Shown one piece after another: positions 4,142-31,219 of a stretch of DNA of 31,219 nt. Position numbers and translations under genes: made by a program. Location of the stretch: positions 1 through 31,219 of the IMG/VR virus record IMGVR_UViG_3300029981_000164. One strand, written 5' to 3'. The notes beneath the pieces are model-generated. The model saw nothing but the letters and a program-made list of their open reading frames with translations. It was not told the DNA's origin and searched no databases. The stretch is from a virus. The number at the start of each line of letters is the position of its first letter. Position 1 is the first letter of the stretch.

Positions 4142-5269
4142 TTATATCATTGAATATCTATATGTTGTTTCTATATAAGGCAATCTGAACGTATACCCAT
4201 CATTGCTTTTAAATTCGTAATCGCATACCATGTACTTACCTCTAAGCCTGGATGCAAATAATGCTTTTGATTCAGGAATATTTACTATTGCGTATACATT
4301 ATTCTCATCTCCATTATACGCCTCAACGGCGCCAATTGTTCCAGAGAAATCAGATCCTATTAGGTCTCCGTTTTGATAATGCTTAACAGCGAGATTTTGT
4401 TTTAGCCAAACCTGAGTACCAATAGTAACCGAATTATACGTATCTCCATCAATTATAATATCTCCTTCATTTATGGAGTCATCTTTGATTAATCTTATTG
4501 ATTTTGCTTGTCCACCAGTATTGTATAAATACACTGTGCTAACACTGCCATTATCATGCTCTAATTTGATATAATATTGTTCTAAAGCCCAAAAAGAACA
4601 TTCATCTCCAATATTTATATCAGAACCATACCTTATTCCGCTTGGCAAAGCCGTAAAATTAGATTCATTTGTAGCTCCTGTATTTGGGGAGTTCCAATTA
4701 AGGGTGCCGACTTCTTTAAGTTTTCCGCCAGCCTCACTTCCTCCTGAGTAAGTGATTAAGGTTTGCCATTCCTCTAGACTTGGAATATGCCAGCCAGAAG
4801 GGGCGATTCCTCTAGAATCTATAAAGGCATCCCAGCTATAAAGTCTACCGTGTTTTATAGTTTTTGACGACGATGAAGATATGTCTTCTGAGCTATCTCT
4901 AGGTATAGAAAACTTATAAGTATCTTCTCTACTATCTATAAATTCAACCTTATCTGTAGTGTACAATCTAGTTTTAAATTGCAATGGAACTATATTTTCA
5001 GTAGGATGAAAATCAGCAGAATATGATACATTGTCAAATGTTTTTGTAACTTCATAATCATCATTTATTAGAAATCTAATGAATGATCTATCTGGAGTAT
5101 ATGTATCTTTCATTCTATTATAGTCATTCTCTACATTATGAAGAAAACATTTACCGTCTGCATCAAATGAGTAATACGATCCCTTTAAATCAATATACCA
5201 TTTAGGATCAGATGAGATAAATGATGAAAAAGCCTCTATGGCTTCTGAGTAGTTTAATGTGCTTAGCAT
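4142..5269 (-). CDS. Tail-associated protein with FISUMP domain, halves in swapped order (375 aa)
   Basis: Residues 1-135 are a unique N-terminal region, probably the virion anchor, ending in a Ser-rich linker (131-135). Residues about 141-262 carry one half of the Fibrobacter succinogenes major paralogous (FISUMP) domain: GRLYSWDAF, IAPSGWHIPSLEEWQTL, GGKLKEVGT, NTGATNESNFTALPSGIRYG and a closing RLIKD. Residues about 275-322 carry the other half (TYNSVTIGTQVWLKQNL, then HYQNGD). In typical FISUMP proteins the QVW..NL half comes first, so this one looks permuted. FISUMP domains are common in Bacteroidota surface proteins and phage fibres; a role in adhesion is inference. The gene sits 1 nt from both the muzzle gene and the cargo-type gene, which suggests a tail-tip position. 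A paralogue with the same order lies at 13885-14994. Confidence 0.7.
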   Translation of the reverse strand: MLSTLNYSEAIEAFSSFISSDPKWYIDLKGSYYSFDADGKCFLHNVENDYNRMKDTYTPDRSFIRFLINDDYEVTKTFDNVSYSADFHPTENIVPLQFKTRLYTTDKVEFIDSREDTYKFSIPRDSSEDISSSSSKTIKHGRLYSWDAFIDSRGIAPSGWHIPSLEEWQTLITYSGGSEAGGKLKEVGTLNWNSPNTGATNESNFTALPSGIRYGSDINIGDECSFWALEQYYIKLEHDNGSVSTVYLYNTGGQAKSIRLIKDDSINEGDIIIDGDTYNSVTIGTQVWLKQNLAVKHYQNGDLIGSDFSGTIGAVEAYNGDENNVYAIVNIPESKALFASRLRGKYMVCDYEFKSNDGYTFRLPYIETTYRYSMI

Positions 5270-5270
5270 A

Positions 5271-8200
5271 TTATTCTATAGTAGAGGCATCCTTTATGCC
5301 GTAAAGAGATATCATAATCTCGTTATATTTCTTGTCGTATATGATAGGAATATTGTTTCCTTCTTCATTTATTGTAGATTTGCTATCATTCAATATCGAT
5401 TGAACTCCTTTAAGCTTCGATAGAGCACCAATAGAGCCCCTGTAAGCGACGATCTCCGCCCTGTCTGAGTCATACCAGTAAAGAGTATTATCAGAGCTAG
5501 AAATGCCCCCTATGATGCCGTATTTAAATCCATTGCTTGTAGATATATAATCAAATCTAGTAAGTATTCCAGACGTCCCAAGTACCAATTCAGTAAGGTT
5601 ATTATCTTTCATCAGTGATCGTTCGTTTACTGATAAAACTCCAAACGAATTATCTTGCCAGAAAAATAGCTTATTGTTGAATTTATACAAATTGGTCAGT
5701 CTACCAAATTCAGAGTCAACATCTATATAATTAGCAACTTTGAACTTAGTCCAACTGTCAGATAACTCATCATTAGTCTTAACCTCTGACGAATAAACTC
5801 TACAATCAAATGATTTATTTGACTCAGTACCTATTAATCTAGGGTAATACGACAATGCTGTAGGTTCCGCTGAGTACGCTGAGTTATATGCGTACTGAGG
5901 TAGCTCTTGAACTGATGTATATGTTCCTCCATATGAACCGGCTGGCATATATGATCCTGGATTCTTTTCTATATCTCCATTATAGCTACTAGCCACGTAT
6001 GACTTAGAATTAACCAGGTGTAAGTTTATAGATGATTCTAATGGTATCATAGCACCTACGTGCTTAGCTTGAGCAGCAAGACATTCTTCAGTTACAAATA
6101 GGCCGCTATCCATTCCAGCATTACCCATCATAGGTTCTGTAGACCTGGTTATAGTATAGTCAAATATTCCTATGAAAGTGTCACCTCCAAATACATCAAC
6201 GTTTGTCGCTTCTTCAGGGTTAATAGAATATCCAGTAGATATATATTCAGTAAATTGTCTATCAACTATAGATGATCCACCGTATATACTGCTATTCATC
6301 TTCTTCATATTCATTATATATGTAGAAAGAGTGGCCATCCCCATCTTATCAAGTCGCTTATGTTCAGTAGAGTAGTTAGAATTAGAGTATTCGTTTCTAA
6401 CCGTATCTATGGATAACATATGAGGTATTGTATTCTCATTATTAACTGAAAATATTATTCCTTCTCCGTGATGTCCTGAAGCCTTTGTTCCAGATATAGC
6501 TAATACAGAGCTAGTATATACGTCATCTATTTCAGATTTAGCTCCATTAAAGTCCCTACAATCTCCAATAGTCAGTGAATATGATAGATTTAAATATTGT
6601 TTACCTCCGTTAGACACATATCTATCGGGTGTAATTAATCCAGCCTTTGTTTTTGGCAACGTATCTCCAGAGTATTCAAATGAATCTGCTTGAAACAGTC
6701 TTCTAGTATAATCTGATCCAAATGGATTAGAAGTAGTCTCTATAGTTTTATTTGTAATGTTCCTGCTGTTTTGGTATAGAAGCTTTATAGTCTTTGAGTC
6801 ATTCTTAACATCGAATAGCCTTCTGAAGTATTTGAACGTTCCACCAATCAAACCACCTTCAATGCTAGCAGTATAGTAGGCTGGTGGTATATCACACATT
6901 GGTCTTCCGTTATCAAATGCAGCCGCATCGCTAAATACTCTTCCAGATCCACTTCTATACGAAGCTTGTTGATCTCCAGTTGATGTTACGTATGCTCCGC
7001 CAGTCGCAACATATCCCCTTGGGTACGTAATGTTATTTATTCCATCATTTAGCGTAGGTGGATATATATCAAGTTTCTCTGGAGCAGGTATTACTTTACA
7101 TAAATCTAATGCTAAATTGTGATCAAAGCTTGGATTTATATTCTTCATATCCATTCCAAATAAACCAAACAAAGAAAAGAATGTTGTGTTATTCCTGTTC
7201 TTTGTATTTATATCAGCACCAAAATATAAAGAAGATGGGTTCCATTTACCGCCACCATAGAACGATAGTCTTTCGTGTAGCGGACTTCCGTAATATGAAC
7301 TTCTTCCAGTATCTCCCCTAGCAGTTAATAATGTAGGTGGAGTTGATTTAGGGAATATTATGTCTACAGTTTCAAATGTAGGATTAGTAGTTATTCCTCT
7401 AATCTGTTCAGTAAAATCTACTCCGTAAAAAGAAGTTTCCGGGTTTATAAACAAGAAGTCAGTATTGCTTGCTCTATATGGAGATAATGCATGCTTAGTG
7501 AAGTCATATCTTACATTTCTTCCTCCACCAAAGTCATCGTATCCTACAAATTGAGTAGTATCGGCACCAGATCTTTCCCATACTATTGCATTAGGAAAGC
7601 CAAAGAAGCAACATTTATTGTCTGAAGTCCATGGAACCGCTATGTCGTTTGAGTTATATCCAGTCTCAAGTATTTCGTATACTGGGCCAAGTGACGAGTA
7701 GTTATATCCCATCGCAATAAATGGGTGTGGCATTATGCTTCCTTCTATCGGAGGAGTAAGATCACTATCGCCTATACTGTCATGGTACGTTCCAACTTTT
7801 TGGACCACCCCTTGAGACAATATAGTCTTATTGATTAAATCTCTCTTAGCTCTGACTATCTCTATCCTGCTAATATTAGAAGGTATATTATTAAAGTTAA
7901 ATGATAATCCAAGCGGCTTTACTAATAGCTCTTGATTCTTTAACATTGTGATGTCGGAATATCCAAGGTTATCAGTTTCTTCTGGCATCTCAAATATACT
8001 TGAATTCCATTCAGAGTTGCTTACATATCCAGCCGGAAATCTAATATCTGCTATCCATTTTGCAGTAGTACTTCTTCCTTTAGAATCGTAAAATACAGCA
8101 GCGAACCTGTAAATCTCATCCCTTTGATAAGATTTAAAATTATTAGATAGATATGGATTAGCATAGTTTAGTGGACCTTCATGAACTGGTAGACCAAAAT

Positions 8201-9704
8201 TAGTTATATCTGAATTACAATATGTACCATCGCTCTTAAATATGCGTACTGAGTCTATTTCTCTTTTTACGTCTCCAATCCTAGCAGTCCTATTGTCTAT
8301 GAATCTAGCTGCATCTCCAGCTGGCTTAGTAATTCCAGGAGTGTTGCTCCAAAAATCTCCATATGATTCTACAAAGTATGTATTAGTAAACAAATAGCTT
8401 ACGTTAACTCCAGATCCACCTAGATTACCGTTAGCGTCGTATATATCAGTAAGTGACGAATATTTATCTACAGTATATATTTCATCGTGTATTGAGTCAT
8501 GCGTAGTCGGAACTGTACCTATAACTTCTGATGAATAAGTATTTGTTACAGAACCGTTTTTTATATGGCAATATCCGTTTATATCAAACTGATATGCTCT
8601 AGTATCATAGTATCCAGGTTCTCCAGGATTAGGCATATCCCAAGTATCTTCTTTAACGTTTCCTGCGAACAGAATATTGTCTTTAGATTCTAGATAATTA
8701 GGTTTAAATAGATAGCCCCCTATAGAAGCGAACTCCTGTACTGACAATTCTCCTATAGCACCAGATCCACTATCCTCTATTATTATAGAGGATCCTGAAT
8801 TAGATTCAACTAGATCTAGCTCTTTAACTATGTGTATAACCGGAACTTCAGCATAATTATAATAGTATACTGATATTAATCTAATTTTAGAAAGCTTATT
8901 CCCTTCTGGTATTCCTATTTCTACTTTTACTGATTTGTTCGCAGATTTACCATATTTATCTCCAAGCCCAGTTCCAAGATAATCTATACTCTTCTGTTTG
9001 ATTACAGACTCAGTTAAGTGGACCATTGGGCTTGGCTGGCTAACCGCAGTTTCGCTACCAGATGAGTTAAACAACTGATAGTAATACTGTATCAGACCAG
9101 AGTTCAACAAACCAGAGTCAATACCATAGATAGATGGCCTTTTAAAGGCCGTAGAGGGAAGTATATCTAGCGTTGATACATTATCTATGATTTCATTCTT
9201 AATGTCGTTAGATGCAGCTATATTAACAGATCTCATGTATGATAATCCATCAGCCCAATATACTTTAATATTATCGAAATCCTCAAACCTACCAACTATA
9301 CTTAGTACGCTAGATTCGTTTATTCCCATATCTACTCCAACGTCAAGTCCTACTACTCTCCCTGGATTGCCAGGCAAAACATTTTTCTTTACTGGGATTA
9401 GAGGATTTGAGAAATCTATTCTGTATAGTCTATTCTTATTAGTGACTGTATCAAACGTAAAAACTACACCAATATTTCTAATTGCTGTAGTACCTATTAT
9501 CTTTTCATTCGCACCGAACGAAAGGTCGACTAATTTTGAGCTTTGTATATTTGTTATTGCTCCAGAAGTCGCATTGTTATTAGCAACGCATCTTATATTC
9601 TCCGCATATCTGTACTGATCTTTATTCAATAAGGATTTATCTAGATCAAGATTCATCCCCTTTCCAAAAGTATTTGCTACTTTTTTACCTGTTCTTGGAT
9701 TCAT
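5271..9704 (-). CDS. Muzzle-type large tail protein (1477 aa)
   Basis: This is the largest gene in the window. The N-terminus (NTFGKGMNLDLDKSLLNKDQ, then YRYAENIRCV) is of the kind seen in large tail proteins of crAss-like and other Bacteroidota podoviruses. The rest is rich in Tyr, Ser, Asn, Gly and Asp with alternating hydrophobic residues, as in all-beta proteins. Segments such as LYKFNNKLFFWQDNSFGVLS and LYWYDSDRAEIVAYRG near the C-terminus look like beta-propeller blades. In the crAss-like virion a protein of about this size forms the muzzle at the tail end. I assign that role by size, composition and position after the ring-type genes. No signal peptide, membrane helix or enzyme motif is seen. 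Its stop is 1 nt from the next start. Confidence 0.65.
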   Translation of the reverse strand: MNPRTGKKVANTFGKGMNLDLDKSLLNKDQYRYAENIRCVANNNATSGAITNIQSSKLVDLSFGANEKIIGTTAIRNIGVVFTFDTVTNKNRLYRIDFSNPLIPVKKNVLPGNPGRVVGLDVGVDMGINESSVLSIVGRFEDFDNIKVYWADGLSYMRSVNIAASNDIKNEIIDNVSTLDILPSTAFKRPSIYGIDSGLLNSGLIQYYYQLFNSSGSETAVSQPSPMVHLTESVIKQKSIDYLGTGLGDKYGKSANKSVKVEIGIPEGNKLSKIRLISVYYYNYAEVPVIHIVKELDLVESNSGSSIIIEDSGSGAIGELSVQEFASIGGYLFKPNYLESKDNILFAGNVKEDTWDMPNPGEPGYYDTRAYQFDINGYCHIKNGSVTNTYSSEVIGTVPTTHDSIHDEIYTVDKYSSLTDIYDANGNLGGSGVNVSYLFTNTYFVESYGDFWSNTPGITKPAGDAARFIDNRTARIGDVKREIDSVRIFKSDGTYCNSDITNFGLPVHEGPLNYANPYLSNNFKSYQRDEIYRFAAVFYDSKGRSTTAKWIADIRFPAGYVSNSEWNSSIFEMPEETDNLGYSDITMLKNQELLVKPLGLSFNFNNIPSNISRIEIVRAKRDLINKTILSQGVVQKVGTYHDSIGDSDLTPPIEGSIMPHPFIAMGYNYSSLGPVYEILETGYNSNDIAVPWTSDNKCCFFGFPNAIVWERSGADTTQFVGYDDFGGGRNVRYDFTKHALSPYRASNTDFLFINPETSFYGVDFTEQIRGITTNPTFETVDIIFPKSTPPTLLTARGDTGRSSYYGSPLHERLSFYGGGKWNPSSLYFGADINTKNRNNTTFFSLFGLFGMDMKNINPSFDHNLALDLCKVIPAPEKLDIYPPTLNDGINNITYPRGYVATGGAYVTSTGDQQASYRSGSGRVFSDAAAFDNGRPMCDIPPAYYTASIEGGLIGGTFKYFRRLFDVKNDSKTIKLLYQNSRNITNKTIETTSNPFGSDYTRRLFQADSFEYSGDTLPKTKAGLITPDRYVSNGGKQYLNLSYSLTIGDCRDFNGAKSEIDDVYTSSVLAISGTKASGHHGEGIIFSVNNENTIPHMLSIDTVRNEYSNSNYSTEHKRLDKMGMATLSTYIMNMKKMNSSIYGGSSIVDRQFTEYISTGYSINPEEATNVDVFGGDTFIGIFDYTITRSTEPMMGNAGMDSGLFVTEECLAAQAKHVGAMIPLESSINLHLVNSKSYVASSYNGDIEKNPGSYMPAGSYGGTYTSVQELPQYAYNSAYSAEPTALSYYPRLIGTESNKSFDCRVYSSEVKTNDELSDSWTKFKVANYIDVDSEFGRLTNLYKFNNKLFFWQDNSFGVLSVNERSLMKDNNLTELVLGTSGILTRFDYISTSNGFKYGIIGGISSSDNTLYWYDSDRAEIVAYRGSIGALSKLKGVQSILNDSKSTINEEGNNIPIIYDKKYNEIMISLYGIKDASTIE

Positions 9705-13884: not shown

Positions 13885-14994
13885 TTATAATCCACCTTTT
13901 GTATAGTGGTACGTTCCATTGTTTGTAGGGCTTACTGAAAGTAATGCTAAAGCAGTAAAGTATCCTCCTATGATAGTACTTGATGACTGAGACTGTCCAG
14001 ATGCTATTATCAAATTAGCTCCAGAAACATTAAATGACCTTCCTGCGGAAGCATCATAGTAGCTGTAGTTAAATGTTATAGTGACATTAGTGTTTACGGT
14101 AACAGCACTAGGAGATCCAGCATATACAGAATATGCATACATTTTCCAATTGGTTCCATCATACGTAGTATCAACATATATTTCGACATATGTATCATTG
14201 ATCACATAATTATCAGCATAAGCCCATGCATCGTTATTGCTATAACTGCAGCAAGCTCCAGTGCTAAGACTAGCCCAGGTCGAATTGTCTGTTACTACTG
14301 GTATATCATTACCGTTTCTATATTTGGTTCCTCTTAAATTCGATGCCATCCACACTTGACTGCCAATCTTTACAGTTTTATATGTATATCCACTATTGTC
14401 AGTCATTATTCCGTCGTTAGTAGAATTATCTTTAATAAGTCTTACTGATAAACCGGTATTTCCATTTCCTCCGTCACCTGATCCTATGCTAGCTAGATTG
14501 TAATATAACTCCAATCCATAATAAGTAGTAGTTCCGTATAAACCATACGATCTTATATAATTAAATACTCCATTATATAATCTATATCCACTTCCGACTC
14601 CAGAAAAACCATAAGAATCAGTCGCACTAGTATTTGGAGTAAGCCAATGAGTAGTTCCCACTTCCTTTAAATTTCCACCAGCAACCGAACTTCCTCCGAC
14701 TGTAGAAATAAGAGTTGATAGTTCTGCAGCAGTTGGAACATGCCATCCGCTTGGGGCTATATTTCTGCTATCGTGTATTGCATAGTTATTATATAATCTA
14801 CCATATCCACCATTAGGAATAATATGTTGATAATTTCTAAAATTATACAAGCTATTTTTTGAGCCAACGTAGCTAGAATCAAAAGTGCCTACTGCCGCAG
14901 AAAATAGTTCAGTTAGAGTCATATCACTGCTATCACCATATATTTCAGTTACTACATCGCGCTGATTAAATGAATCAGTATTCGGTACAGCCAT
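13885..14994 (-). CDS. Fibre protein with FISUMP domain, halves in swapped order (369 aa)
   Basis: Residues 1-62 are an N-terminal region with VGSKNSLYNFRNYQHIIPN, a stretch seen in fibre proteins of Bacteroidota phages. Residues about 64-189 hold one FISUMP half (GRLYNNYAIHDSRNIAPSGW, then HVPTAAELSTLI, GGNLKEVGTTHW, NTSAT, and a closing SVRLIKD). Residues about 203-255 hold the other (YTYKTVKIGSQVWMASNLRG, then KYRNGNDIPVVTDNSTW and TGACCSYSN). The canonical order is the reverse. The last 110 residues are Tyr/Thr/Ser-rich and beta-like. A receptor-binding or adhesion role is inferred. The gene follows the collagen-like fibre directly (start 14994, fibre stop at 14995). It resembles the protein at 4142-5269 in domain order but has different N- and C-terminal regions. 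Confidence 0.7.
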   Translation of the reverse strand: MAVPNTDSFNQRDVVTEIYGDSSDMTLTELFSAAVGTFDSSYVGSKNSLYNFRNYQHIIPNGGYGRLYNNYAIHDSRNIAPSGWHVPTAAELSTLISTVGGSSVAGGNLKEVGTTHWLTPNTSATDSYGFSGVGSGYRLYNGVFNYIRSYGLYGTTTYYGLELYYNLASIGSGDGGNGNTGLSVRLIKDNSTNDGIMTDNSGYTYKTVKIGSQVWMASNLRGTKYRNGNDIPVVTDNSTWASLSTGACCSYSNNDAWAYADNYVINDTYVEIYVDTTYDGTNWKMYAYSVYAGSPSAVTVNTNVTITFNYSYYDASAGRSFNVSGANLIIASGQSQSSSTIIGGYFTALALLSVSPTNNGTYHYTKGGL

Positions 14995-17790
14995 CTATTT
15001 ATTCTTTAGTTTATTTATCTCAACTTCTAAGTATGCTATTTTAGCTACCAATAAATCAATATATTTTACTTTGTATTCACCCTCTTTGTCTCCAGTTACA
15101 AATTCATCAAATCCATTACTAAGTAAATCTTGAGCAATAGTACCAAATCTAAGTTCATCTAAGTTATTTTTAAAATTAAATGATACTAAATTAAGTCTGC
15201 TATAGTCTTTAATAATTGGTTGAATATTGGTTTTTAAGGTTCTATCTGATGATAGAATAAAGTTACTGGCAGTAACGGTTCCGCTTACAGAAATAGAACT
15301 TCCGCTTTCGCTAATCAAACTATTTACCATACTACTACCATTCCATTTAGGAAGGTAGTTAGTTGATAAAGTATTTGTTAGATTGCCTGAGTGATATACC
15401 TTATTCCATGGACTTACTACCTGTCTAGTACTTCTAAAATACATACTAGAGCCATCGTAATTAAAATATAATTGAGTTCCATAGTAAGTATTAAAATTTA
15501 AAACGGAACCATATCCACCATCTATAGGATAGTTTAATGATGAAGGCATGCCAAATACATTATAACCAGCATGTCTTGTTAAATCATTGGCATTTTGACC
15601 TGTTGCGTTTCCAAGTTCTCCTACAAAATAACTAGATTCTGATTTATTACCAAGATATTCTGCATTCAAGTTACTAACTATTGTAGTAGAATTTACAGTA
15701 AGTGGAGAAGTTCCAGTTGCTACTGTTGATTGAAGTTGAGTAGCATTTACAATAGAAGCAAAAGTTGCTGCTCCTGTCGTTGCAGATATTTTTAATCCTT
15801 GAGCACCAGTACCAAGTAAATAAGCATCACCACCAGTATTAAACAATATAAAATCTGTTGATGAATAACCCCCCGATATATCACCACCAACTCCAAGAAA
15901 CATAGTTGCATCAACTCCTGTTCTAATATGTGAATTAGCGCGAGCAACCCCACTAATCCACATATTTGCAGATTGAGCAGAAGCATTTTGGTTTAGTATG
16001 AAATTACTTCCACTATAAGTAGGTATATCTGTTATTCCATATCCACTAATTGTAGTAGGGTGACTACTAGTGTTCCATGGGGTGTAGCCTAAAGCAGTAG
16101 TCACCATTCCACTATTTATACCTGTTATCCAACCACCATAGTTACCAAGATTATTTGTAAATTGACTTAGGTTAGTTGGAAAATTACTAACCTGCGACTT
16201 AGTAATGCTTATACCAGTAGATTTATTCCATGCAGTAAATATAGGGTCTGTTTCAGTAAAACTAGATAGGTAGTTGTGCGTGTGAGTAGTTATTAAGCCA
16301 GTAAGAACTGATTCAACATTAGCTTTAGTTATTCCGCTAATATAACTATTAGGATTTGACGCTAAGTAGTATGATGAATTATCGTAACTAACCGTAGTTC
16401 CACTAGACTTAACAAATCCAGTCCCGTTTAATTGTGGTTGACCGCCAAGGCCAGATAAAGTTTGATCTCCAGTGTTACTACCACTTAACGTAGTTACACC
16501 TAACTTAGTTTTAATAGTTGTAATTGTCTCATCACCAGTATTAGATCCAGAAAATGAAAGATTTGGGACATTAGATAAACCTATATCGGTCTTAGATGTA
16601 TTATGAGGATTTCCAGTTATTATCTGAGAGTGGTCATATGCAGTCTTTCCCCTATCTCCTCTATACGCCGTAGAAGAAGTTTCTCCTAATGCCAATGATT
16701 GGCTAATAAGAGCATATATACTGCCACTCCATCTATATGTAAGATTAGTAGTGGTGTCTATATAGATCTTACCGGATTCTCCAGTAGCTGGGAATAGGGT
16801 TATTGATGAGTACTCCAAAACATCATCTACATATGACGGCAATTGGGAGTTCTTTACAAATCCACTTGAATCAAGTTCGGCAAGGCCATTTATAGCACCT
16901 TTAAGCGACGTTTCTAGTTTATTTGATAAAGCACTAGTTAAATTATTTATGTCGCTTATATCAGCCTTAGATGAGCTTACAACGAGTCCATGAGAGTCGT
17001 ATGTTATCTTGGAATTAGATCCAGCAGTTATTGGAGTGTTAAGACCAAGCTTTAAATCTAATGCGCTTTGAGTTGCAGTAGATATTGGCTTATTTAGATC
17101 ACTAGTATTATCTACATTAACAAGACCTATATCAGCTTTAGTTAATGTAACGTTGCCATTTATTTGAGTTACTCCATTTACTGAGGTAGTTAACCCGTCT
17201 TGTCCAGGTGCACCCTGTATCCCTTGTGGCCCTTCAGCTCCAGGCATTCCTTGATCACCTTTGTCTCCGGAAAGTCCAGTATCACCCTTATCTCCTTTAA
17301 AACCTTGATTCCCTTGATCTCCTTTATCGCCTTTAGCGCCAGTAAGGCCTAAGTCTCCCTTATCGCCTTTATCTCCTTTAGGTCCAATAGAACCGGTAGA
17401 GCCAGTATTGCCTGTTTGTCCAGTAGCTCCAGTATCTCCTCTATCACCTTTGTCTCCCTTATCGCCTTTTGGACCAGGCTGGCCATCAGAGCCTTGATCT
17501 CCTTTATCCCCCTTATTTATATCTGTATTTACGTCTATAGTAAAGTCTATGGAATCATTAGTAGTTATATCGACGTTTAAGGCCATTTGCGGCTCTATAG
17601 TGACACTTAAAGGTACCTCTTGGTTATCTAATACTACTTCAATATTAAGTTCATTAGAAGCGCTTAAAACGACATCTACAGGAATAGCCTCAACTGACGG
17701 TGATTCTATGCTTAATGATAAATCAATATTTCCAATAACATTGTCTATTGATATTACAGATTCTTCTGCCTGATTGAATTCTAATGTCAT
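14995..17790 (-). CDS. Collagen-like fibre with C-terminal S74 intramolecular chaperone (931 aa)
   Basis: Residues 1-93 form an N-terminal beta-type anchor domain. Residues about 94-199 are some 35 uninterrupted Gly-X-Y triplets rich in GDK and GPK, which should form a collagen-like triple helix. From about 200 to 840 the chain has fibre repeats (KADIGLVNVDNTSDLNKPIS; SGSNTGDETIT; SGSNTGDQTLSGLG). Residues from 847 (SSDRTLKTNI) to 931 match the peptidase S74 chaperone domain, which drives trimer folding and cuts itself off at a Ser-Asp site; S848-D849 and K853 are present, and the C-terminal helix (YIDLLVAKIAYLEVEINKLK) is typical. The protein is therefore a trimeric host-recognition fibre. 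It ends in TAG. Which part of the virion it attaches to is unknown. Confidence 0.85.
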   Translation of the reverse strand: MTLEFNQAEESVISIDNVIGNIDLSLSIESPSVEAIPVDVVLSASNELNIEVVLDNQEVPLSVTIEPQMALNVDITTNDSIDFTIDVNTDINKGDKGDQGSDGQPGPKGDKGDKGDRGDTGATGQTGNTGSTGSIGPKGDKGDKGDLGLTGAKGDKGDQGNQGFKGDKGDTGLSGDKGDQGMPGAEGPQGIQGAPGQDGLTTSVNGVTQINGNVTLTKADIGLVNVDNTSDLNKPISTATQSALDLKLGLNTPITAGSNSKITYDSHGLVVSSSKADISDINNLTSALSNKLETSLKGAINGLAELDSSGFVKNSQLPSYVDDVLEYSSITLFPATGESGKIYIDTTTNLTYRWSGSIYALISQSLALGETSSTAYRGDRGKTAYDHSQIITGNPHNTSKTDIGLSNVPNLSFSGSNTGDETITTIKTKLGVTTLSGSNTGDQTLSGLGGQPQLNGTGFVKSSGTTVSYDNSSYYLASNPNSYISGITKANVESVLTGLITTHTHNYLSSFTETDPIFTAWNKSTGISITKSQVSNFPTNLSQFTNNLGNYGGWITGINSGMVTTALGYTPWNTSSHPTTISGYGITDIPTYSGSNFILNQNASAQSANMWISGVARANSHIRTGVDATMFLGVGGDISGGYSSTDFILFNTGGDAYLLGTGAQGLKISATTGAATFASIVNATQLQSTVATGTSPLTVNSTTIVSNLNAEYLGNKSESSYFVGELGNATGQNANDLTRHAGYNVFGMPSSLNYPIDGGYGSVLNFNTYYGTQLYFNYDGSSMYFRSTRQVVSPWNKVYHSGNLTNTLSTNYLPKWNGSSMVNSLISESGSSISVSGTVTASNFILSSDRTLKTNIQPIIKDYSRLNLVSFNFKNNLDELRFGTIAQDLLSNGFDEFVTGDKEGEYKVKYIDLLVAKIAYLEVEINKLKNK
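17194..17511 (-). repeat. Collagen-like Gly-X-Y coding repeat
   Basis: About 35 consecutive Gly-X-Y triplets within the fibre gene. Many codons spell GDK, GDQ or GPK. On the plus strand the repeat unit reads close to ctttatcac/ctttatctcc variants. The run is unbroken, so the region is probably a rigid triple-helical shaft. Such repeats change length readily by slippage or recombination. Confidence 0.9.
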
Positions 17791-27881: not shown

Positions 27882-30800
27882 TTATCTTTCTCCTGTTACC
27901 TTATTCTTCATTGCAGTCTTAGCTTTTAATCTCTCTCTATCCATAGCGTTCCGATCCTTCATAGCCTGAAGTTCTTTCACAGCCTTAATCTTTTTATCCT
28001 CCAGCTCTAGCTTATCATGATCCAAAGCAAGCTTACCGTCTTCAGTAGCTTTCTGTTGCTGAATCTTTCTAACTTCTAAATTATGTTTCATAGCAGCTTC
28101 TTTCTGTTTAACAGACAACTGCATTGCTTTATCCATCTCGTTAGAGTCTTGAGCTCTTTGCTTCAATGACATGTCAGCAATTTCCATTACATCTGGAATA
28201 CCGTTCTGATCAGCATCAAGATCTTGTTGTCCTCTATAAGCACTAAGCTCAGCAACATATATCTTAGTCTGGTTGTCAGTATCAATTTTATATTTTTCAA
28301 GTTCGAGTTTTTGTTGCTCTAATGATAATGCTTGAGATTTAACTTGATTTTGAGCATCAATCAATTGCATTTGACGTTGATTTTCTTGTTCGGCGGCAGC
28401 CTGCTCTTTCTCTCCTCTAGCTTTTTCAATACCAGCTAATTTAGATTTAATTGCACTAACACTATCAAGTGTCATGATTTCAGCAATATCTAATATAGTA
28501 GCACCATTCTGCATGGCAGGTTGATAAAGTGATTTAACAGCTTCCAAGTCCTGTAGATCCTTAACTGAGTCAGATACAAATATATCGTAGTCCTCATAGA
28601 AGAAGTTATCTGCCAACTTAAGGAATGTTCTTGTAGAATCATCCATTATGTATTGCAAGCTAACACGCTTAGAGTCCTTCCAGACCTCCTTAGCGGTATT
28701 CAATAACATTCTTAATGAATTACGCTTACATTGATTATGAGTCCAGTAGAGAGGTTCTGTGATGCTTGCAGAGTTACTTACAGCTGCATTAACATTACCA
28801 ACTAATTCGCTTGGAGAAATCTCGCCTTGACGTTGTCTAGATACGCCCGATATCTCAGCCATCATATCCTCTATCTTATTCATTAATCCAATATACTGGT
28901 TAATAACATTAGACATAGTTAAGTCTAAAGCAGTGATCTGATTGAACTGTGCTGAGTTGTGAGCTATTGTCAAATCTCCAAGAAGGAACAAATGATCTTG
29001 ATCCAACTCAAATCCAAAATATTCATCAACTCCATGATACTCGACATTAAACATTGATCTATTAGCATCTCTTGCGAAGAATTTTACTTGATTAGTTTGC
29101 TTTCTTTTTATTCTAGTTGGAATTCTTTCGCATCCACTTAGTATACTTGCAACATAACAAAATTCAGCATGGTTTTTACATAATTCCGATGGAGTACATT
29201 TTCTTTTTCTAACAGACACCTTCATTCCTAAACTTCTTGCAATAAATGCAAATTTATCAACAATGTGCTTTCTATACTCTGTTTGACAGAATCCAAATCT
29301 ATTTTTTGTTTTATCGTACCATCCATCGGTATCTATAAGGCCAGCAAGGATTGAAAGCCTATTTTCCTTTGATGTGTATATATACTCTTCTGGAATATCC
29401 TTATACTCTCTTATGTTCAGATCGGAAAGCCTATCCAAAAACCAATTGCCAGGCAGGTTCCTGTATTTTGATCTACTTCCTCCAGATAAATTTACAGTAA
29501 GAGATCGACTATTTATGTTCGCAGTTATTCTAGTATTCATTCCATGAAGAATAGCAAATTCCTCTAGATAGTTTATTATCTCCGTATCCATACTTTCGAA
29601 CTGAGCTTTGTTTGTGCTTCCATCGCCAATCCATAGTCCAAGAGTGTACGGATCTATTAAATGATCTCTATAATTCCCACTTCGCCACATATCTATCTCC
29701 CCTCTCCTATATAGAAAGTGCCTATCTCTACATGATGGGGTTTTATTGAACTTTAACATCAGCTCTTCTGGGGTGGACGTAATAAAAGATACTTCGTTCG
29801 TATGATGATTTTTTAAACCATAGTATATATCGTGTCTGCTATTAACTATTTGAACATCTCCTCCAGAGCTAGGGACTATCTTATACATATTGTCGACTCC
29901 ATTGTGCGTATTAAGTACTCGTCTAGGAGACAAGTCTGGACCCATTACTAAATTCCCAACAGACACATCTTCAATGTTTTTTAAACTTCCGTCAAACATT
30001 AATATCTTTGTTCCGCGACCAAAACACTTACCACCTTCACGTCCTGGTATATCCCAACCTTCTTCGTATGGATTAATAAAGTTAACGCCTACAGATGATA
30101 GATAATGCATCCATTTAGCTGGATCTATATTCATCGATTTAGGTATCTGCGTGATATCCATGTTGATAACCTTCCCTTTATCTCTAGCTAACGCAAGTTC
30201 AAGTCTGTACCATATAACTATGTACATGTATTGAAGCGGTTTCATTATAGCCACTAATGACTTAGGAGTAGAATTAGTGTTATTATATATAACGCCACTA
30301 TAAGGTAATTTCTGTGAATTAAGGTTATCTGCAGAAACGTGTTGATATTCTAGTGGAGCTATCCCAATATAGATATCTTCTCCAATTCTATAGCCTTCCC
30401 ATACTTCGATAACCCATTTCCATTCGATGCTAAGTTCGTTGCCGATAACCATATAGTCTTCACTTACTATGATCTCGTTAGGCTCTCCATTATCGCCAAG
30501 TACTTTTACGAATCCAATCTTTTTGTATGATTTCCATACCGCATGCCATAGATTAACTTGATTTGGTTGATTAATAGTACTATCACCTCCACCTGCTACA
30601 GTCTTCATGTTCATGTTGACATAATCTAATGATGATGGAGTATCTTTACCATATCTACCAGATTGTGGATTCTGACCAGTAAGTTCTAATAACTTATCTA
30701 GCTCTTTCTCTGTCATCTTATCAAACAATCTATCGTATACCTCAGTATAAGACATTCTCATACGTCTAACAGCCCAATCACCATCTTCTATGAACTCCAT

Positions 30801-31219
30801 ATCAGGTGAATGATCATGACCGAAGTATAGTGGATTAACGCGTTCCATATTTGGCTCTCCGTTAACTACTCCAGTGTAGTATACCTCTTTACCAGCAATT
30901 AAAGCATCTTTCCATCCTTTAGAGTATTCGTGAGGTAGATTAAGCTTTTCTTTTAGATAGTTAAGTGTATGATATGCTGAGTTCTCTGCAATGTCTTTAT
31001 ATCCTTTAGATACATAGTTCATTATTTTTTCAGGCGGCATTAATTCACCGGTCTGTAGCTTCTCTTGGTATTCTTGAGCAGATTTCTCATCCATTCCAGA
31101 TAGAATAGTAGCCATGGTATAATCCATAAGCATTTGCTTCATCTTATCTTGTACGTCAGACGCTGCATCTTGGCTAGTTCTAATAACTCTAAATCTAAAT
31201 GGATGCTTAGCTTCTTCTC
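27882..31219 (-). CDS. Portal protein, 5' end outside the window, interrupted by an intein
   Basis: The reading frame is open to the right edge: upstream of the first ATG (31142) 25 further codons read EEAKHPFRFRVIRTSQDAAS and on with no stop, so the true start lies outside the window and the ATG at 31142 is internal. Without the intein the visible chain is about 754 residues, in the range of crAss-like portals. The N-terminal extein contains NYLKEKLNLPHEYSKGWKDA, DGDWAVRRMRMSYTEVYDRL and IVIWYRLELALARDKGKVIN; the C-terminal extein begins SAQFNQITALDLTMSNVINQ and has EISGVSRQRQGEIS. The last 190 residues are Gln/Lys/Glu-rich and helical, as in the portal crown. The portal forms the ring through which DNA is packaged and ejected. 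Ca2+-like loop at 28182-28223. Confidence 0.8.
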   Translation of the reverse strand, partial: EEAKHPFRFRVIRTSQDAASDVQDKMKQMLMDYTMATILSGMDEKSAQEYQEKLQTGELMPPEKIMNYVSKGYKDIAENSAYHTLNYLKEKLNLPHEYSKGWKDALIAGKEVYYTGVVNGEPNMERVNPLYFGHDHSPDMEFIEDGDWAVRRMRMSYTEVYDRLFDKMTEKELDKLLELTGQNPQSGRYGKDTPSSLDYVNMNMKTVAGGGDSTINQPNQVNLWHAVWKSYKKIGFVKVLGDNGEPNEIIVSEDYMVIGNELSIEWKWVIEVWEGYRIGEDIYIGIAPLEYQHVSADNLNSQKLPYSGVIYNNTNSTPKSLVAIMKPLQYMYIVIWYRLELALARDKGKVINMDITQIPKSMNIDPAKWMHYLSSVGVNFINPYEEGWDIPGREGGKCFGRGTKILMFDGSLKNIEDVSVGNLVMGPDLSPRRVLNTHNGVDNMYKIVPSSGGDVQIVNSRHDIYYGLKNHHTNEVSFITSTPEELMLKFNKTPSCRDRHFLYRRGEIDMWRSGNYRDHLIDPYTLGLWIGDGSTNKAQFESMDTEIINYLEEFAILHGMNTRITANINSRSLTVNLSGGSRSKYRNLPGNWFLDRLSDLNIREYKDIPEEYIYTSKENRLSILAGLIDTDGWYDKTKNRFGFCQTEYRKHIVDKFAFIARSLGMKVSVRKRKCTPSELCKNHAEFCYVASILSGCERIPTRIKRKQTNQVKFFARDANRSMFNVEYHGVDEYFGFELDQDHLFLLGDLTIAHNSAQFNQITALDLTMSNVINQYIGLMNKIEDMMAEISGVSRQRQGEISPSELVGNVNAAVSNSASITEPLYWTHNQCKRNSLRMLLNTAKEVWKDSKRVSLQYIMDDSTRTFLKLADNFFYEDYDIFVSDSVKDLQDLEAVKSLYQPAMQNGATILDIAEIMTLDSVSAIKSKLAGIEKARGEKEQAAAEQENQRQMQLIDAQNQVKSQALSLEQQKLELEKYKIDTDNQTKIYVAELSAYRGQQDLDADQNGIPDVMEIADMSLKQRAQDSNEMDKAMQLSVKQKEAAMKHNLEVRKIQQQKATEDGKLALDHDKLELEDKKIKAVKELQAMKDRNAMDRERLKAKTAMKNKVTGER
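28956..30026 (-). mobile_element. Intein with LAGLIDADG homing endonuclease in the portal gene (357 aa)
   Basis: The insert starts at Cys (codon 30024-30026) after GREGGK and ends with His-Asn (codons 28956-28961) before Ser, the residues required for splicing. The N-terminal splicing block reads CFGRGTKILMFDGSLKNIED; a block B-like NSRHDIYYG follows about 60 residues later; the C-terminal block reads FGFELDQDHLFLLGDLTIAH then Asn. In the middle are two dodecapeptide motifs, DPYTLGLWIGDGST and LAGLIDTDGWY, about 100 residues apart, which mark a LAGLIDADG endonuclease with both acidic catalytic positions (Asp in each). Removal joins GREGGK to SAQFNQ in frame. The splicing and the endonuclease look intact, so it is probably an active mobile element. 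Its codon use (mostly AGA for Arg) resembles the surrounding genes. Confidence 0.92.

Follow-up and report, generated by a model that had tools for sequence, protein, structure and literature searches.

The DNA analysed here, called the window below, is a viral stretch of 31,219 nt (IMG/VR record IMGVR_UViG_3300029981_000164, positions 1 to 31,219) that carries a portal gene with a large in-frame insert. This raises the questions of what the insert is, how a portal could be made from such a gene, and how the insert came to lie at this site.

The insert and its host gene

The host frame was assigned to the portal by a profile search (phrog_6547, E 2.4e-124) and to the Crassvirales portals by homology to gp20 of PhicrAss001 (PDB 7qog), at E 3.1e-56 for the frame itself and E 1.9e-122 for a profile of 16 intein-free relatives. 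The open frame of 1111 aa runs off the high-coordinate end of the window (Table 1), but contigs L002 and L004 contain it in full. What was fetched of these contigs shows 1 mismatch with the window over 8335 nt, and their portal frame, intein included, measures 1209 aa from stop to stop. The insert comprises 357 stop-free codons in frame with the portal, and the limits proposed for it in an initial annotation were exact to the base, from the Cys1 codon through the terminal Asn codon.

Table 1. Portal gene, intein and splicing or endonuclease residues in the window. A slash marks an insertion point, here and in the text.
Feature	Positions	Strand	Basis or remark
Portal gene with intein	27882..31217	-	1111 codons, 5' end open beyond the window; profile searches
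N-extein, part within the window, ends ...DIPGREGGK	30027..31217	-	Matches gp20 residues 97-502
Intein, 357 aa, HINT splicing domain and LAGLIDADG homing endonuclease	28956..30026	-	Pfam, PDB profile, model
C-extein, SAQFNQ... to stop	27882..28955	-	
Cys1, N-terminal splicing nucleophile	30024..30026	-	Invariant in 14/14 aligned inteins
Block B, Asn62-Ser-Arg-His65	29832..29843	-	Asn62 and His65 invariant in 14/14
First LAGLIDADG motif TLGLWIGDG with Asp135	29619..29645	-	Aligned with PI-SceI Asp218
Lys209	29400..29402	-	Aligned with PI-SceI Lys301
Second LAGLIDADG motif LAGLIDTDG with Asp234	29322..29348	-	Aligned with PI-SceI Asp326
C-terminal His356-Asn357	28956..28961	-	Invariant in 14/14
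Terminal Asn codon of intein	28956-28958	-	
Ser+1, C-extein nucleophile	28953..28955	-	Mostly Pro or Ala in intein-free portals
Boundary NPYE/EGWD (portal site a), empty in the window	30062..30063	-	Related intein present here in L119, L140, L203

The insert is a full-length class 1 intein of the PI-SceI/VMA type with both LAGLIDADG motifs. Searched alone, it matched the Pfam families Hom_end_hint (1.8e-20), Hom_end (2.6e-11) and LAGLIDADG_3 (1.5e-6), each above the curated cut-offs. When aligned with 13 relatives, Cys1, Asn62, His65, Asp234, His356 and Asn357 were invariant across the 14 inteins and Asp135 was nearly so. The Pfam matches, the portal profiles and this alignment confirm the initial reading of a full-length intein in a portal gene; the splicing landmarks it had named (Cys1, a block B His, a C-terminal His-Asn and Ser+1) were all found. 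The assignment to class 1 follows from an in-frame insert that is missing in homologues and has Cys1, Asn62-x-x-His65, His356-Asn357 and Ser+1. Both LAGLIDADG motifs, GLWIGDG and LAGLIDTDG, are indeed intact and carry the acidic residues (Asp135 and Asp234) of a PI-SceI-type homing endonuclease, so that judging from its sequence this enzyme is apparently intact.

The fold points the same way. An AlphaFold2 model of the intein (pLDDT 88.6, pTM 0.86) matched the PI-SceI miniprecursor along its entire length (1ef0_A; Z 32.8, 337 residues, 3.3 Å, about 27% identity) and the Prp8 intein, as expected of a HINT fold, and its best match in a structure library of viral proteins was the portal of phage cr118_1. 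In a profile search of the PDB, PI-SceI was found at 2.1e-47, with its Asp218, Asp326 and Lys301, which we take to be the catalytic residues, aligned with Asp135, Asp234 and Lys209, respectively. PI-SceI, the yeast VMA1 intein, thus shares with the window intein the fold, the order of motifs, two LAGLIDADG motifs, the position of Lys301 and the C-terminal His-Asn, but it has 454 rather than 357 residues, Cys rather than Ser at +1, and a V-ATPase rather than a phage portal as host.

Two other identities were considered and rejected. Class 3 inteins lack the N-terminal nucleophile and have a Cys in block F; Cys1 and the Cys-free block F stretch YFGFELDQDHLFLL rule out this class. A group I intron was rejected, with no Rfam match in the window at the gathering score. 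Elsewhere, a group I intron (Rfam, 94.7 bits) at 12607-12904 of L081 overlaps the end of the first of the two pieces in which the major capsid protein of cr118_1 is annotated. Outside the portal gene of the window, the predicted proteins at 4142-5269 and 13885-14994 have a common type of segment (APSGWHIPSLEEW and APSGWHVPTAAEL, respectively), presumably resembling the Fibrobacter succinogenes major domain, and the predicted protein at 14995-17790 has collagen-like Gly-x-y repeats and is presumably fibre-like.

Sequence alignment places the insertion site (site b) between gp20-equivalent residues 502 and 503; an AlphaFold2 model of the intein-free portal L012 was set aside for this purpose (pLDDT 49.8, pTM 0.27). 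The inner stem helix of gp20 spans residues 519-541 and the tunnel loop 550-563 (PMC10172136). By this alignment the site falls in the segment just ahead of the inner stem helix; from the usual order of portal elements, this segment would belong to the end of the clip. For such a position it is sound to expect that assembly of the portal ring would depend on splicing.

Carriers, empty sites and the +1 residue

Among 170 loci that span the region and hold 94 distinct portal stretches, 7 distinct portals contain an intein. The search for related inteins at the same site, suggested at the outset, returned four distinct portals with an intein at exactly site b: the window with its twins, L003, L005 and cr118_1. 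In the other three (L119, L140 and L203) a related intein occupies site a, 12 codons upstream of site b, where the sequence reads NPYE or NPHE, intein, then T, C or S. None of the 7 distinct carriers has both portal sites filled. Of 603 phage records with a match, 2 were covered to at least 80% of the portal and intein together, both of them cr118_1. A short-pattern scan of bacterial and archaeal genomes matched 14 stretches, 0 of which encode a relative, a pattern-bound result that does not imply absence. The viral scans likewise see only sequences with the chosen short patterns, and one of them comprises the best 80 of 121 stretches.

The portal of cr118_1 (MT774379/NC_055872; Besingivirus, Suoliviridae) thus has an intein of the same family at the identical site, 57.7% identical to that of the window along the full intein. 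This phage is from human faeces, and its record names a portal protein and lists features without an intein; the same-site intein is therefore present, unremarked, in a deposited portal. In L005, the portal frame (5001-8276, intein 6198-7262) contains 15 TAG codons and 0 TAA or TGA codons, one of the TAGs lying within the intein at a position that is Gln in relatives, and a gene for a tRNA with anticodon cta lies near the portal (L005 1661-1733). With in-frame TAGs, an intein and this tRNA, making the L005 portal would take the reading of stop codons as well as protein splicing.

We carried out the alignment check that the initial annotation had proposed, and 96 distinct intein-free portals read through across the GREGGK-SAQFNQ junction, none of them with an insert above 200 nt there; up to 17 of the 96 are distant and align loosely at the junction, with small gaps. 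The claim that the insertion point falls in a conserved part of the portal was borne out by Gly387 (93/96), Arg393 (91/96) and Gly396 (93/96), in a set to which one scan that took the conserved block as its pattern and two further scans that did not contributed. At +1 the intein-free portals have Pro in 54 cases, Ala in 22, Asp in 14, Ser in 2, and another residue or a gap in 4 (not corrected for relatedness). The Ser+1 noted earlier is therefore present in the window but is not a conserved portal residue. Since Ser+1 occurs in 4/4 distinct site b carriers as against 2/96 intein-free portals, we regard it as a change accompanying the intein. At site a, the +1 residues are Thr, Cys and Ser in the three carriers, and Glu (85), Asp (8), Asn (1) and 2 unlisted others in the 96 intein-free portals. 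The two intein-free portals with Ser+1 at site b, L023 and L066, are the sole such cases; their Ser may mark an intein since lost, or may be due to chance.

One occupied and one empty portal are nearly the same sequence. The contigs L003 (with the intein) and L017 (intein-free) come from two metagenome data sets; over 2562 nt their portals are 99.4% identical. Counted from the junction, there are 2 differences in the 1606 nt upstream and 20 in the 1460 nt downstream. Three differences are found no more than 2 nt from the junction, where L017 reads AAG/CCT (Pro) and L003 reads AAA/AGT (Ser); the next ones lie about 980 nt upstream and about 170 nt downstream. From this spacing, gain (or loss) swapped almost only the intein and its edge, including the +1 codon, and in this pair the splicing nucleophile accompanies the intein. 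The pair is compatible with homing. Because most intein-free portals have Pro or Ala at +1, the simplest reading would be a homing gain with a very short converted flank, although L017 could also have arisen from an L003-like phage by recombination that removed the intein. L017 was the only empty site of its kind found in viral contigs, and phage records contained no empty allele close to cr118_1.

Splicing, homing and their alternatives

Very probably, in our judgement, the portal gene holds a class 1 PI-SceI/VMA-type intein that splices itself out before ring assembly and homes with a short flank bearing Ser+1. The case for splicing, cleavage and homing draws on the anatomy of the insert, its family, its distribution and the occupied/empty pair. 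Portal and intein would be translated whole, as one chain; the intein would excise itself through Cys1, block B, His-Asn and Ser+1, joining GREGGK to SAQFNQ, and the spliced protomer would be made before the ring assembles. In a mixed infection, portal genes lacking the intein would be cleaved at site b by the endonuclease; repair templated on the occupied copy would then bring in the intein together with a very short converted flank that supplies the required Ser+1.

The intein tree united the 4 site b inteins, the 3 site a inteins and one TerL intein (from L025, described below, filling 48% of the columns only) in one group with support of 100/100. Within this group the inteins fell by site, with 100/100 for site a and 94/96 for site b. 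The remaining rows were 18 relatives found in viral contigs and other phages, all gathered because they resemble the portal intein. The tree does not include L093 and L096, which nearly duplicate rows already present, L095, which lacks a proper C-terminus, L102, which resembles L099, L107-L110, or the TerL inteins at IAG/CDP, Y/SFKG and D/RGKR. On the portal tree, by contrast, the carriers are scattered: a single clade was rejected for the site b carriers (p-AU 8e-96; 87 of 104 rows, without the 17 most distant) and for the site a carriers (p-AU 2e-8; 34 rows, all 7 carriers plus one in three of the rest). The occupied/empty pair and these scattered carriers are new, and are unusually clear signs of recent movement.

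The alternative that survives best, although we consider it unlikely, is an ordinary splicing intein whose endonuclease no longer homes, its distribution being due to old inheritance with losses and the L003/L017 pair to one recombinational loss. The low number of carriers, 7 distinct ones among 94 distinct portal stretches, would suit it. So would the divergence of the window and cr118_1 inteins, about as large as that of their portals (59% and 58% identity, respectively); this comparison and that of the window with L005 (intein 57%, portal 60%) fit old inheritance as well and would count against transfer. In the window and L003, the identities are 81% for the intein and 73% for the portal. 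Against loss of homing, L119 and L203 have inteins 69% identical in portals only 48% identical, one-clade carriers were rejected on the portal tree (for site b, losses alone could produce the same), and both LAGLIDADG Asp residues and the Lys are retained. The dN/dS of the endonuclease part was 0.119 between the window and L003 (dS 1.3) and ranged from 0.119 to 0.565 in the 12 of 15 pairs with finite values, all but one with dS above 1; these ratios are rough because nearly every comparison is close to or beyond synonymous saturation, but low values would fit a working endonuclease.

It is also improbable, though less so than the regulatory switch and the retained insert taken up below, that an endonuclease specialised on Walker A motifs reached the portal because GREGGK/S mimics a P-loop. 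Judged from their flanks, relatives outside the clade do sit at P-loop-like positions (GK/T or G/xGK), and a P-loop matrix ranks site b 7th among 745 in-frame positions of the spliced window gene, or 14th of 745 without the +1 codon, which is suggestive. However, a KGK/V position outscores all others in 9/10 genes, site b scores negative in 9/10 genes, site a ranks 475th of 745 in the window gene, and the hypothesis was framed once the sites had been seen.

Inteins in the packaging motor

The clade has a third site, EEAG/S in TerL, seen in L025. The TerL of this contig is cut at its 5' end and retains the C-terminal half of a related intein, 50% identical to that of the window, ending HN/SFKD where other TerLs read EEAGSFKD; the start of the intein falls outside the contig. 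A pattern scan of viral sequences for further inteins of this type gave only the contig itself. A single intein clade thus occupies three sites in crassvirus packaging genes, which is new. DNA likeness between the three sites as a driver of site change was rejected, the likeness in the L017 genes alone being not above chance: the sites agree in 9/30 (a and b), 10/30 (a and TerL) and 12/30 bases (b and TerL), and fractions of 0.64, 0.46 and 0.15 of in-frame positions, respectively, score as well.

Other TerL inteins accompany some of the portal inteins. In L004, TerL lies upstream of the portal with one open frame of unassigned function between them, and an intein at IAG/CDP is present in TerL of both L004 and cr118_1 alongside the portal intein. 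TerL inteins at this site (L004 2144-3268, L081, L012, L007, L066 and others) matched in 27 loci; that of L004 shares about 22% of 274 aligned residues with the portal intein. Further TerL inteins at Y/SFKG (L024, L019) and D/RGKR (L028) are without an N-terminal Cys and by our reading of the sequences would be class-3-like. In L012, a 276-nt insert (from about 3765), with no Rfam match up to E 1, breaks TerL after CDP, the first C-extein codons, and before DHDKAG; L007 has a 243-nt insert (from about 6129) at the equivalent position between CDP and DHDKAG.

With inteins in TerL of L004 and cr118_1 as well, neither motor component would be ready before splicing, and a regulatory role has been suggested for a cyanophage TerL intein (PMC7156551). 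We nevertheless give little credence to the intein being a switch that delays maturation of the portal (and TerL) until packaging conditions are right: the near-identical portal of L017 manages without it, and TerL is unbroken in the portal-intein carriers L005, L119 and L203 (one alignment each). We also know of no trigger for conditional splicing. That the mature portal keeps the insert as an additional domain is hardly credible, since all splicing residues are preserved, a nucleophile stands at +1 in 7/7 distinct carriers across two sites but rarely there in intein-free portals, and about 40 kDa would adjoin the inner stem helix of the 12-mer ring.

Returning to the self-splicing, homing intein, we tentatively propose that one lineage of it has specialised on the crassvirus packaging motor, moving among TerL EEAG/S, portal NPYE/x and portal GREGGK/S, and that in some phages the splicing of both TerL and portal may serve as a checkpoint on assembly. 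Ectopic moves of inteins to new sites are considered very rare (PMC1635734); given this rarity and the occupied/empty pair, such a lineage, if real, would offer a natural system for catching them.

Known systems and implications

Portal inteins are already known as a kind from mycobacteriophages: Kelley et al (2016) reported six in cluster C1 (PMC5050341), in unrelated phages and likened to ours by host gene alone. Inteins are also known in crAss-like phages, as the initial annotation noted, in TerL of the Delta group (Yutin et al, 2021; PMC7886860); these are in the same phage group and packaging region but in TerL, and the text available to us names no portal intein. None is described for crAss-like phages in the portions seen of PMC7886860, PMC10136315, PMC12363816, PMC5050341, PMC7156551 and PMC3556154, a set in which subscription literature is little covered. 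The closest parallel for the +1 residue is the haloarchaeal MCM-d intein, where empty alleles have Pro at +1 and co-conversion to Ser is needed for splicing (PMC10643990); the Pro-to-Ser change is common to both, but MCM-d lies in an archaeal helicase and has been studied experimentally.

L003 and L017 would illustrate how a site with a +1 Pro, which forbids splicing, can still gain an intein, and the related inteins at nearby sites are relevant to how inteins move from one site to another. Annotation of crassvirus portals, the cr118_1 record included, should mark the intein. Portals nucleate head assembly, and the unspliced precursor would have about 40 kDa inserted next to the inner stem helix, so the viability of these phages should hang on splicing.
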